This document shows, piece by piece, positions 48,480 to 57,058 of a DNA stretch of 64,000 nucleotides. How positions within the stretch are numbered: the first letter of the stretch is position 1; each line of letters opens with the position of its first letter. Source of the DNA: Geminocystis sp. NIES-3708 (GTDB lineage Bacteria; Cyanobacteriota; Cyanobacteriia; Cyanobacteriales; Cyanobacteriaceae); contig NZ_AP014815.1 in NCBI RefSeq assembly GCF_001548095.1, positions 991,656 through 1,055,655 of the forward strand, written 5' to 3'. Below the pieces are notes generated by a model. That model was not told where the DNA came from. It was given only the letters and a program-made list of their open reading frames with translations, and ran no database searches. Made by a program: the position numbers and the translations under genes.

Positions 48480-48658
48480 AATGGATAATAATTAATTAAC
48501 AATTGATAATTAATAATGAGAATTAGTAACTAAAATTTTATTATAAATCTTTTTAATTTTAAACACTATTAATTTTTGTAAATTTAGAAAAAATAATATT
48601 TACATTTAACTTGAATATTTTATTTTAAAAGAATCACTAATTATTGAGAATAAATACT

Positions 48659-48838
48659 ATGATTAATCATAATTATTATAATTTAGATAAAATTACTGAA
48701 CCTATCGCTCAAGCTAAACCTCAAATAAAAGCCATCGTAGAAGAAGTGTTACAATTAGAAAAAGATCGATTATCTCAAAAAAATATCCGCTATATTAATG
48801 ATGATGTGTTGAAAATAATTAAGCAATATATTCAATGA
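48659..48838 (+). CDS. Small protein translationally coupled to a DndD-like ATPase
   Basis: A 59-residue helical protein, MINHNYYNLDKITEPIAQAK with a charged amphipathic helix (KAIVEEVLQLEKDRLSQK) and an isoleucine-rich C-terminus. An in-frame TTG at 48644 could add five residues, but ATG 48659 is preferred. Its stop codon overlaps the start codon of the next gene as ATGA, so the two are translationally coupled and probably work as a complex. No family is recognised. Such small proteins often regulate or bind a toxin or SMC protein. Confidence 0.7.
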   Translation: MINHNYYNLDKITEPIAQAKPQIKAIVEEVLQLEKDRLSQKNIRYINDDVLKIIKQYIQ

Positions 48839-50898
48839 AAATTATTAGTTTACAATTATTGAATTTTCGCCAATTTTACGGTAAAACTCCAGTTATTTAC
48901 TTTGCTCATGGTGAAAAAAATACCACGATTATTCATGGTAATAATGGAGCAGGAAAAACCACTATATTAAATGCTTTTACTTGGGTATTTTATGAGAAAT
49001 TTTCTGCCGCTTTTGCTTCTCCTGATTTATTAGTAAATAAAAAGGCAATTAATGAAGTAGAATTCGGTACTGCGATAGAATGTTTTGTAGAAATAATTTT
49101 TGATCATGATTATAAAACTTATCAGTTAAAAAGAAAGTGTTTTGCTCATCGAAATAAAGAAAATAAAATTGTCATTAATCAACCACAATTATTCATGATG
49201 ATAGCTGGAGATGATGGAAAATGGCAACATCCCTTAGAACAACCAATGGATATAATTGAAAGAATTTTACCTAAAAGTTTACATCAATATTTTTTCTTTG
49301 ATGGTGAACATATTGATCATCTTTTTCGCATAGAAGAAAGACATAAAATTGCTGAAGATACAAAGGAATTAATAGGGGTAAAAGTTTTAGAAAGGGCAGT
49401 CAGTCACTTAAAAAATGCTCAAAAAATCTTAAAAGATGAGTTAAATTCTATAGGCGATATAACAATTACAACGTTGATTAAACAACAAAAAGATCAAGAA
49501 ATTTTCAAAATAAAATTAGAAAAAGATAATAACTTACTTATCACTAGATTAGAACAATTACTTTTAGATAAGCAAAGTATTTCTGCACAAATGTTAGCTA
49601 TGGGTGGTATTGAAAATTTACAAGTCTTAAAGCAAAAATTATTAACCGATGAAAAAGAAGTTAGAAAGAATTTAATTAACACTCAACAAGCTATAAAAAA
49701 AGAAATTTCTACCAGAGGTTATTTAACTTTTTTATCTTCAACCATAGCGGAATTTAATCTGATTATTAAAGACTTAAGACATAAAGGAGAATTACCTAGT
49801 GGCATTAAGAAGCAATTTATAGAACAATTATTACATGAAAAAAAATGTATTTGTGGAACAGAATTATATCCTGAAACAAAGCCTTATTCACAAGTAAAAA
49901 ATTGGATTAATCTTGCGGGAAGTACTGAGATAGAAGAAGCTGTTATTAGATTAGAAACTCAAGTCAATAATATTGAGTCTTTAAAAAATAATTTTTGGAT
50001 AGAAATAAATAAATATCAAGAAAATATTAATAATTGGCGAATTCAGTTAAGCACTATTGAAGAAGAATTAGATAAAATAAATGAACAATTAAGACAATAC
50101 CCTGATCATAATATTCAAGAAAAACAAAGACAATTAGATAATATTGAACAGCATATTCGCGAAATTACTTTAAATCAAGGAGAAAATAATTTACAATTAG
50201 AAAATATTAAAGAAGAGTTAATAAATTTAGAAAAACAGTTAAAAAAACAAGAAGTAAAACAAGAAAAACATTCTCTAATTATTAGAAGAATTCAAGGGGC
50301 AGATGATTCTATAAAATGTATTCTTGAAGTGCAAAAAAGACTGGAAAATCAATTTAGATTAGCCTTAGAAAAAAAAGTTCAAGAAATTTTTAACTCGATC
50401 TCTTTTACCCCTTATCAACCTCATTTAAATGAAAATTATGAGTTAAATTTAATTGAAAATACATCAGGAATTGATTTGGCAGTGGCGGCATCAACAGGAG
50501 AAAATCAAATCTTAAGTTTATCTTTTATCGGTGCTATTATTGATATGGTAAGAGAATGGTCAAAACAAAGTAATTTAGTCGGCTTAGATTCTAGTAAATT
50601 TCCCATAATTATGGATTCACCCTTCGGCAGTTTAGATGAAATTTATCGCCGTCAAGTGGGTAAATCTATCCCTAAATTAGCTAATCAATTAGTAGTTTTA
50701 GTCACAAAAACTCAATGGCGAAATGAAGTGGAAACGGAGATGAATCCTTATATCAATAAACAATATATTTTAGTATATCGATCGCCAAAAGAAGATTGTC
50801 AAGAAGATTTTATTATTCTTAATGGTGAAGAATATCCGTTGGTTAAAAAAAGCGATAATCAGTTTGAATATACAGAAATTATAGAAGTTAATATTTAA
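48835..50898 (+). CDS. DndD-like SMC/Rad50-type AAA ATPase
   Basis: A 687-residue ATPase of the SMC class. Walker A is GNNGAGKTT at residues 35-43. The FFFDGEHID motif near 160 is characteristic of DndD, the ATPase of the DNA phosphorothioation system. Two coiled-coil arms enclose a zinc-hook-like CxC (C338 and C340, in KKCICGTELYP). The ABC signature is STGENQILSLSFIGA at 553, and Walker B is PIIMDSPFGSLDE at 594. There are no other Dnd genes (DndB, C, E) nearby. It is likely a genome-defence or DNA-repair ATPase whose partner is the coupled small protein. Confidence 0.85.
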   Translation: MKIISLQLLNFRQFYGKTPVIYFAHGEKNTTIIHGNNGAGKTTILNAFTWVFYEKFSAAFASPDLLVNKKAINEVEFGTAIECFVEIIFDHDYKTYQLKRKCFAHRNKENKIVINQPQLFMMIAGDDGKWQHPLEQPMDIIERILPKSLHQYFFFDGEHIDHLFRIEERHKIAEDTKELIGVKVLERAVSHLKNAQKILKDELNSIGDITITTLIKQQKDQEIFKIKLEKDNNLLITRLEQLLLDKQSISAQMLAMGGIENLQVLKQKLLTDEKEVRKNLINTQQAIKKEISTRGYLTFLSSTIAEFNLIIKDLRHKGELPSGIKKQFIEQLLHEKKCICGTELYPETKPYSQVKNWINLAGSTEIEEAVIRLETQVNNIESLKNNFWIEINKYQENINNWRIQLSTIEEELDKINEQLRQYPDHNIQEKQRQLDNIEQHIREITLNQGENNLQLENIKEELINLEKQLKKQEVKQEKHSLIIRRIQGADDSIKCILEVQKRLENQFRLALEKKVQEIFNSISFTPYQPHLNENYELNLIENTSGIDLAVAASTGENQILSLSFIGAIIDMVREWSKQSNLVGLDSSKFPIIMDSPFGSLDEIYRRQVGKSIPKLANQLVVLVTKTQWRNEVETEMNPYINKQYILVYRSPKEDCQEDFIILNGEEYPLVKKSDNQFEYTEIIEVNI

Positions 50899-56221: not shown

Positions 56222-57058
56222 ATGATTAGAAATACTGCAACCATTGACATCCAAACTCAATATAATCAAGGAGAAAGAGATTTTCCAAAATTGCAATTAA
56301 GAAGAATAGATTTAAGAAATAATAAACTTAGAGGAATTAATTTAGCAGGATCAGATTTAAGTTATGCTGACTTAAGAGATGTTGATTTAACCAATGCTAA
56401 TCTCAGTAATTGCTATTTGAATGAGGCTAATTTAAGTGGTGCTAATTTGAGTGGTGCGAACTTGAAAGGAGCATATTTAATTAAAGCATATTTAACTAGA
56501 GTATCTTTCAAAAAAGCTATCCTTAAAGAAACATATTTAACAGGTAGTTTTCTTACTAAAGCAGATTTAAGTCAAGCAGATTTATGTGGTGCATTTTTAA
56601 ATGGAGCTCATCTTAATGGTGCTAATTTTAGAGAAGCAGTTTATGATAACAGCACTCGTTTTGATAAATCTTTCGAGCCTAATTCTTTGGGTATGAAAAT
56701 TAGTTCCTCTTTTCAACAAACCGCTGCAAGAAAAGTTAGTATTGGTGATATAACTAGTAATTTTGAAAGCATCGCTAGCATAACAAGTCATTACTTAGGG
56801 GGTACAATTACCGCCAAAAATTTTGAAGATTCTCGCCCTGATGTAGAATGGTTACAACAATTTTGTATGGATAAAAAAGGGAAAATTTCTTTTACGGGCA
56901 CAATGAGTAATCAAGCCACGATGATGCAATTAAAATGGTTTGAAAAATGGACAAATGCTTTTATCAAAAAATCTTCCATCATTATTCAAGACTTACCAAA
57001 TATTATTGAAGAAAAACATCTCACTGTTGAGTATTTAATCAAAAATAATGTCGCTTAA
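56222..57058 (+). CDS. Pentapeptide-repeat protein with a conserved C-terminal domain
   Basis: A 278-residue protein. Residues ~20-145 are pentapeptide repeats (A(D/N)LXX): DLSYADLRDVDLTNANLSN, ANLSGANLSGANLKGAYL, and so on, forming a right-handed beta helix. A shorter link (DLSQADLCGAFLNGAHLNGANF) ends the repeats at 145. The C-terminal ~110 residues (AARKVSIGDITSNFESIASI, MQLKWFEKWTNAFIKKSSI) are a separate helical domain. Such proteins often bind protein partners or the thylakoid membrane. It is 264 bp upstream of a PAP-type operon on the same strand. A functional link is possible but not shown. Confidence 0.82.
   Translation: MIRNTATIDIQTQYNQGERDFPKLQLRRIDLRNNKLRGINLAGSDLSYADLRDVDLTNANLSNCYLNEANLSGANLSGANLKGAYLIKAYLTRVSFKKAILKETYLTGSFLTKADLSQADLCGAFLNGAHLNGANFREAVYDNSTRFDKSFEPNSLGMKISSSFQQTAARKVSIGDITSNFESIASITSHYLGGTITAKNFEDSRPDVEWLQQFCMDKKGKISFTGTMSNQATMMQLKWFEKWTNAFIKKSSIIIQDLPNIIEEKHLTVEYLIKNNVA

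Follow-up and report, generated by a model that had tools for sequence, protein, structure and literature searches.

The window, a stretch of 64,000 nucleotides from the chromosome of the cyanobacterium Geminocystis sp. NIES-3708 (contig NZ_AP014815.1, positions 991,656 to 1,055,655), carries two overlapping genes, here named pbeB and pbeC, which quite probably belong to the PbeABCD module that works with the DndCDE phosphorothioation enzymes and whose partner genes are scattered over the same chromosome. The open reading frames bear out the preliminary description of a 59-residue gene that overlaps the gene of a 687-residue ATPase of the structural maintenance of chromosomes (SMC)/Rad50-like type by an ATGA at 48835-48838, in which the pbeB stop overlaps the pbeC start (Table 1). 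An alternative TTG start at 48644 would give a 64-residue version of the small protein. The Walker A, FFFDGE, C-x-C, signature and Walker B motifs assigned earlier to the ATPase are all present, and their key residues are conserved in 35 aligned homologues. Invariant positions are G35, N37, G38, G40, K41, T42, F153-F155, G157, E158, C338, C340, S553-E556, Q558 and D594; N36, D156 and N557 are almost invariant, and the Walker A positions A39 and T43 are neither. AlphaFold models of PbeC (three sequences, low confidence, mean pLDDT 55) place helices 169-318 and 364-521 on the two sides of the C-x-C motif. PbeB is modelled as three helices with modest confidence (64.5) and is conserved, with a mean column identity of 57% over 34 rows.

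Table 1. Positions of the gene pair and the motifs of PbeC in the window, and of the other pbe and dnd genes on contig C1 of the same assembly (3.88 Mb)
Feature	Position	Strand	Basis
pbeB, 59-aa small protein	window 48659..48838	+	ATG-start open reading frame
pbeC, 687-aa CxC-hook ABC/SMC-like ATPase	window 48835..50898	+	ATG-start open reading frame; PADLOC PbeC model PDLC02753
Walker A of PbeC, GNNGAGKTT, residues 35-43	window 48937..48963	+	sequence and conserved columns
FFFDGE motif of PbeC, residues 153-158	window 49291..49308	+	homologue alignment
C338-x-C340 hook motif of PbeC, between two long helical stretches	window 49846..49854	+	35-homologue alignment
ABC signature of PbeC, STGENQ, residues 553-558	window 50491..50508	+	homologue alignment
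Walker B region of PbeC, FPIIMDSPFG, D594	window 50599..50628	+	homologue alignment
dndC, 534 aa	contig C1 13,169-14,773	-	only match over cut-off
dndE, 134 aa	contig C1 679,427-679,831	-	125.7 bits; Pfam DndE
pbeB-pbeC	contig C1 from 1,040,314	+	the pair in the window
dndD, 660 aa	contig C1 1,507,723-1,509,705	+	610 bits
pbeA, 481 aa	contig C1 1,740,348-1,741,793	+	TIGR04095, 623 bits, cut-off 600
pbeD, 159 aa	contig C1 2,129,383-2,129,862	+	TIGR04062, 171.6 bits, cut-off 74.25

By its sequence, the ATPase is not DndD but PbeC, the ATPase with a CxC hook in PbeABCD. It scores 885 bits against the PADLOC PbeC model, over residues 1-648. The DndD model TIGR03185 gives 111.2 bits, below its curated cut-off of 245.85, and the PADLOC DndD models reach 129 bits at most. 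It could be argued that the ATPase is nevertheless the DndD of a phosphorothioation core and that the small gene encodes a DndE-like subunit, as the DndD profile aligns over the full length of the protein and hhalign matches it to the genome's own DndD with 99.2% probability. This is the least probable of the alternatives considered here, since 111 bits stand against a cut-off of 246 and since a separate DndD (610 bits), together with a separate DndE, is encoded elsewhere in the genome; the assignment to DndD was rejected on these grounds. The two ATPases do share the SMC-like architecture, the FxFDGE motif (FLFDGE in the genome's DndD aligns to FFFDGE of PbeC) and alignment along the whole chain, and the C-x-C hook sets PbeC apart. 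PbeC is described as a zinc-hook ABC ATPase of the CxC type, which arose together with DndD from an ancient duplication (PMC10853773). The matches to PbeC among solved structures are all weak, with E values from 0.01 to 0.57; they comprise SMC proteins, PtuA and a retron ATPase.

The 59-residue gene is PbeB, judged by its place before pbeC, which is that of PbeB in PbeABCD, where PbeB and PbeD have 66 and 152 residues, respectively (PMC6459918). A sample of 100 related genomes was used for comparison, 92 of which are termed good (completeness of 90% or more, contamination of 5% or less). A profile search for pbeB covered 78 pbeC loci, from 78 of the 83 pbeC-bearing relatives (G047, G051, G072, G077 and G080 are outside this set). 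The gene lies upstream of pbeC on the same strand, within 783 bp, in 75 of the 78 loci, and the ATGA overlap is exact in 67, so the pairing is not due to chance. In the three exceptional genomes, and in G051, pbeB directly follows pbeA. When 20 chosen genomes were searched, pbeB was found in all eight with the system and in none of the 12 good genomes without it. Two elements of the preliminary description are thereby supported: the small protein is a genuine and conserved companion of the ATPase, encoded in an overlapping frame, and the pair is something other than the canonical Dnd core. The outcome that would have refuted the pair, a small protein that is not kept next to the ATPase in other genomes, was looked for and not found.

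Beyond the relatives, a profile of 33 cyanobacterial small proteins was run on 11 loci, eight from plasmids and three from relatives, in which all 2804 frames between stops with 30 codons or more were scanned. The seven best matches are all the small open reading frame preceding a pbeC, haloarchaeal and actinobacterial loci among them; the five strongest have E values of 6e-23 in Pseudanabaena, 5e-10 in Natrinema, 3e-5 in both Halorhabdus and a second operon of the relative G064, and 8e-5 in an unannotated Arthrobacter record. Pfam, NCBIfam and PADLOC gave the small protein no useful name; one weak NCBIfam lipoprotein match reached 15.8 bits against a cut-off of 130. The CxC ABC-ATPase-DndE systems described in PMC10853773, and treated there as a sister group of DndD, likewise combine a C-x-C hook ATPase with a small protein. 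Their small protein is reported as rapidly evolving and mostly disordered, in contrast to the PbeB found here, which is conserved and modelled as helical.

The other genes of the set are present on the same chromosome (Table 1). dndC, dndE, dndD, pbeA and pbeD each occur in one copy over cut-off, as intact open frames amid genes that look unrelated by eye, and the genes of the set are spaced at least about 230 kb apart; the contiguous A-B-C-D order is absent. PbeA carries the Pfam domains ResIII and Helicase_C and is a superfamily 2 (SF2) helicase. The statement that the pair occurs without the rest of the Dnd system is accordingly true of the window, which holds no Dnd or Pbe gene besides the pair, and false of the genome. 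Likewise, the ATPase does not have a small partner only: pbeA, pbeD and dndCDE lie elsewhere on the chromosome and mostly co-occur with it across relatives.

For the co-occurrence counts, pbeC was called at E 1e-10 and pbeD, pbeA, dndC, dndD and dndE by family cut-offs; three partial pbeA, one partial dndD, a split dndC in G013 and a pbeC split by a prophage in G002 were counted as present. TIGR04096 (86 of 100 genomes over cut-off) was excluded because it is unspecific, being over cut-off in seven of the 12 good genomes without pbeC. The genes are found in 83 (pbeC), 83 (pbeD), 81 (pbeA), 81 (dndC), 81 (dndD) and 83 (dndE) of the 100 relatives; all six occur in 74, none in 12 and a mixture in 14. 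Of the good assemblies, 80 have pbeC together with pbeD, 12 have neither gene and none has only one of them. The corresponding numbers (both, neither, mixed) are 79, 12 and 1 for pbeC with pbeA, 79, 10 and 3 with dndD, 78, 10 and 4 with dndE, and 77, 9 and 6 with dndC. These counts ignore shared ancestry. The 12 good genomes without pbeC span five families, of which f19 and f31 also have pbeC-bearing members, and a third of the five, f8, has members with pbeD in a wider sample of the phylum. In the one-contig genome G058 of f19, long distances separate pbeA, pbeC and pbeD; provided that the absence in G079 of the same family is correctly read as a loss, the joint loss of such unlinked genes would point to a shared function. 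Of the 70 genomes of this order in the phylum sample, 59 have pbeD, against three of 144 others; 132 genomes without a match are unlisted, and the split by order assumes a listing sorted by kinship. The Pbe set therewith looks rare beyond the order.

These data bear on the earlier suggestion of a separate two-gene system, a stand-alone module for defence or DNA maintenance. The window itself, with no other Dnd or Pbe gene adjacent, would fit such a module, as would the 13 checked loci of the window's family, where pbeB is the only searched Pbe or Dnd gene within ~4 kb of pbeC. It is, however, contradicted by pbeA and pbeD, whose presence or absence follows that of pbeC with few exceptions, by four genomes in which pbeB lies beside pbeA and not next to pbeC, and by the A-B-C-D order in other genomes. 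A stand-alone pair is very unlikely and was rejected, its partners being located elsewhere in the genome.

A decaying relic, the leftovers of a broken-up system, is less probable still. Signs of decay do occur among relatives: G075 (locus L177) has neither dndC nor dndD, and its pbeA is fragmented and contains a stop; dndC of G013 (L223) lies in two frames, pbeC of G093 has an early stop that ends the frame after 72 residues, and G005 (67% complete) has stops too. In the window's genome, however, all seven genes are open over their full length. Both genes of the pair look to be under purifying selection, because the ratio of nonsynonymous to synonymous substitution (dN/dS) in five close pairs, compared over gap-free codons, is well below 1 (0.07-0.15 for pbeB and 0.045-0.175 for pbeC).

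The characterized counterpart of the set is PbeABCD of Haloterrigena jeotgali A29, which blocks virus replication in a phosphorothioation-dependent manner and requires pbeB, pbeC and pbeD (Xiong et al. 2019, PMC6459918). The two sets have in common the PbeC ATPase, a PbeB before pbeC, an SF2 helicase as PbeA, a TIGR04062-type PbeD and phosphorothioation genes in the same genome. They differ in that the Haloterrigena genes form one cassette (DndCDEA-PbeABCD) and the cyanobacterial genes are dispersed, in the phospholipase D (PLD)-like domain of the Haloterrigena PbeA, and in distribution, as the set is very common in one order here and extensive gene transfer is reported in PMC6459918. The A-B-C-D order is uninterrupted in Natrinema and Ruegeria plasmids and contains inserted genes in two further cases: in Halorhabdus the helicase and pbeB are separated by a transposase gene, and in Pseudanabaena pbeC and pbeD are separated by other genes. 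All four have the helicase on the upstream side and, on the downstream side, a gene that is of the TIGR04062 type or occupies a similar place; the gene after pbeC is of the TIGR04062 type in the Ruegeria plasmid, and the Natrinema protein at the pbeD position, with 41 bits, does not reach the cut-off of 74.25.

On the basis of the gene identities, their conservation, their joint presence and absence and their scattering, the pair is quite probably pbeB-pbeC of a PbeABCD module that acts with DndCDE, the seven genes being dispersed on the chromosome. DndCDE, with a host cysteine desulfurase, would place phosphorothioate marks on self DNA. PbeC may be an ATP-driven, zinc-hooked clamp that scans DNA by means of its ATP heads and zinc hook, and PbeB a small helical subunit that regulates or bridges it; the ATGA overlap would keep PbeB production in step with that of PbeC. 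PbeD would serve as a DndE-like subunit in contact with DNA, according to a reading of PMC10853773, and PbeA as the SF2 helicase motor. Together, PbeA, PbeB, PbeC and PbeD would halt the replication of incoming unmarked DNA. Complex formation, these subunit roles and the antiviral outcome are proposed by homology with the Haloterrigena system.

Several observations weigh against this assignment. The PbeB profile is weak in Halococcus (E 0.012, with a transposase gene between the small open reading frame and pbeC) and in the alphaproteobacterial Ruegeria (E 0.07), and it finds no match before pbeC in Rhizobium and Lactiplantibacillus despite an annotated small gene there. PADLOC matches neither the small proteins as PbeB nor any of three scanned TIGR04062-type proteins as PbeD. 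The N-terminal region in which the characterized protein has its PLD-like domain is missing from the cyanobacterial PbeA: the open frames measure 451-551 residues in the 81 relatives over cut-off, the window genome's PbeA (~480 residues) has only helicase domains in Pfam, and the match of the Pseudanabaena PbeA to its best PADLOC PbeA model starts only at position 242 of 682. Short PbeAs are also found in Natrinema and Halorhabdus. Even in the long PbeA of Ruegeria, Pfam detects no PLD domain, and a search for the HxKx4D motif found none, long PbeAs included, and is uninformative on a PLD active site. G071 and G083 have dndCDE without Pbe, and five of the 80 good genomes with pbeC (G016, G018, G032, G062 and G075) miss at least one of dndC, dndD and dndE. 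The tie between Dnd and Pbe is strong and not absolute. The trees of the components also disagree in part: of the nine well-supported PbeC splits (support of at least 0.9), five conflict with DndC, five with DndD and two with PbeD. Finally, a near-core and scattered set of genes is unusual for a defence system.

With linkage within 20 kb taken as one cluster, 15 of the 74 six-gene genomes have the genes in a single cluster and 17 have every gene apart; 13 of these 17 are of the window's family, which is all its six-gene members. Because draft contigs inflate scattering, the 22 assemblies of at most 10 contigs were examined, and the genes lie in six places in eight of them and in one place in four. 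pbeA, pbeC and pbeD are clustered in relatives such as G059 and G070. Gene trees were compared with that of the marker TypA in 15 genomes, after five of 20 were dropped with one of the six genes missing, broken or too short in the retrieved DNA. PbeC has eight of 12 splits in common with TypA, and none of its nine well-supported splits conflicts with a well-supported TypA split. PbeA has seven of 12 in common and conflicts with none of the seven well-supported TypA splits. The corresponding values are four of 12 and one of seven for PbeD, five of 12 and two of seven for DndC, and three of 12 and three of seven for DndD. PbeC and PbeA hence look vertically inherited from their trees; the history of PbeD, a short protein, is ambiguous, and DndC and DndD in part show other histories. 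The correlation of distances is 0.83 for PbeC with DndD and 0.67 for PbeC with DndC, by a measure different from that of Xiong et al., who reported little correlation (0.107) between DndCD and PbeAC similarity across prokaryotes (PMC6459918).

We tentatively propose that the order carries DndCDE-PbeABCD as a near-core, largely vertical and often disassembled system, in which Pbe would be a constitutive check on the replication of DNA without the marks. The main rival holds that the set has been domesticated, the marks and a Pbe complex with short PbeA serving chromosome maintenance or replication control rather than defence. The high frequency of pbeC in the order (83 of 100 relatives), the congruence of the PbeC and PbeA trees with the marker, the dispersal among unrelated genes and the short PbeA all suit this view, and wide presence together with several complete absences fits either. 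Such a housekeeping role is unlikely, given the antiviral activity of the Haloterrigena relative (PMC6459918), the absence from good genomes of five families, by which the set is not indispensable in the order, and a prophage inside pbeC of G002, a genome of the same genus that retains the other five searched genes.

If the proposal of a disassembled DndCDE-PbeABCD system is correct, phosphorothioation genes regarded as solitary and antioxidant would have had a discriminating partner throughout, and a Pbe complex would operate without the PLD-like region. Defence systems are usually discovered through neighbouring genes. A complete set whose genes are scattered escapes such discovery, and it is presence and absence across genomes that ties the genes together. 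In PMC6459918 partners were searched only within 10-20 kb, and the “solitary” PbeAC loci, on which the scattered set bears, were counted within 10 kb. Phosphorothioation genes had been noted in this phylum before, as dndC-D-E in Microcystis and other cyanobacteria (PMC2442094). For the Cyanobacteriales, the dnd genes were described as vertically inherited with disordered gene order (Jian et al. 2021, PMC8569181), which agrees with the order, inheritance and disorder seen here. According to the same paper, Cyanobacteria have no restriction systems, and the origin suggested for the dnd genes is an antioxidant one; the restriction component meant there is DndFGH, and “pbe” does not appear in its main text. 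TIGR03238, the one DndFGH-type family searched, was found in none of the 100 relatives at E 1e-20, and in none of 14 control genomes either. PbeABCD is a candidate restriction partner for cyanobacterial phosphorothioation genes that the 2021 paper and a 2025 review deemed unpartnered, and with such a partner the idea of an antioxidant origin can be put to the test.

A single component was noticed previously, as a restriction enzyme of the phosphorothioation type is reported near the dnd genes of Microcoleus, at a dndBCDE locus for which the relevant passages of PMC8546630 do not name PbeB, PbeC and PbeD. The main text of PMC10853773 does not contain the letters “cyano”. In the open-access main texts searched, no description of a scattered, co-inherited cyanobacterial PbeABCD was found; an earlier notice may exist, for example among supplementary tables or in the Haloterrigena paper's Fig. 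6. Hydrococcus rivularis is a cyanobacterium. PbeC was likened to its “SMC protein” at 24% identity in PMC6459918, with no follow-up in the passages concerned.

Some relatives carry further loci. The dndCDE clusters of G071 (contig C26) and G083 (contig C9) are without any Pbe gene, and other sampled members of the two genera are without the whole set or have only a partial dndC (G042); these clusters are perhaps recent acquisitions. In G041 (L097, contig C145) and G082 (L098, contig C240), dndC has a PbeC-like gene of 21-25% identity nearby, and the PbeB profile has no match before either of these PbeC-like genes. They look like accessory Dnd-Pbe clusters, and the core dndC of these two genomes is uncertain, since the counted dndC is near this second, more distant PbeC-like gene. 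G064 has a second, distant Pbe operon (L172, contig C576) alongside the core set, with a pbeA frame of 730 residues, a pbeB, a pbeC of 30% identity and a pbeD of 100 bits. The prophage of G002, ~45 kb long (L173-L175, contig C1, about 2626562-2671651), splits pbeC just after the Walker A codons and encodes a serine-type integrase (phrog_95), a tail sheath, a tape measure and a head maturation protease; here a temperate phage is lodged within a gene of defence type.

The neighbours of the pair in the window are a cation transporter, TypA, a methyltransferase and RecJ, assigned from their translations, and from Pfam for the methyltransferase. The idea of a defence-island setting finds no counterpart in these genes, and a mobile defence island was rejected, as the neighbours are unrelated and the cation transporter recurs beside pbeC in eight of 76 loci, all of the window's family. 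We also note that a pentapeptide-repeat-like protein with a repeated A(D/N)LxxA motif, recognized by eye in the translation, is encoded at 56222-57058 of the window.

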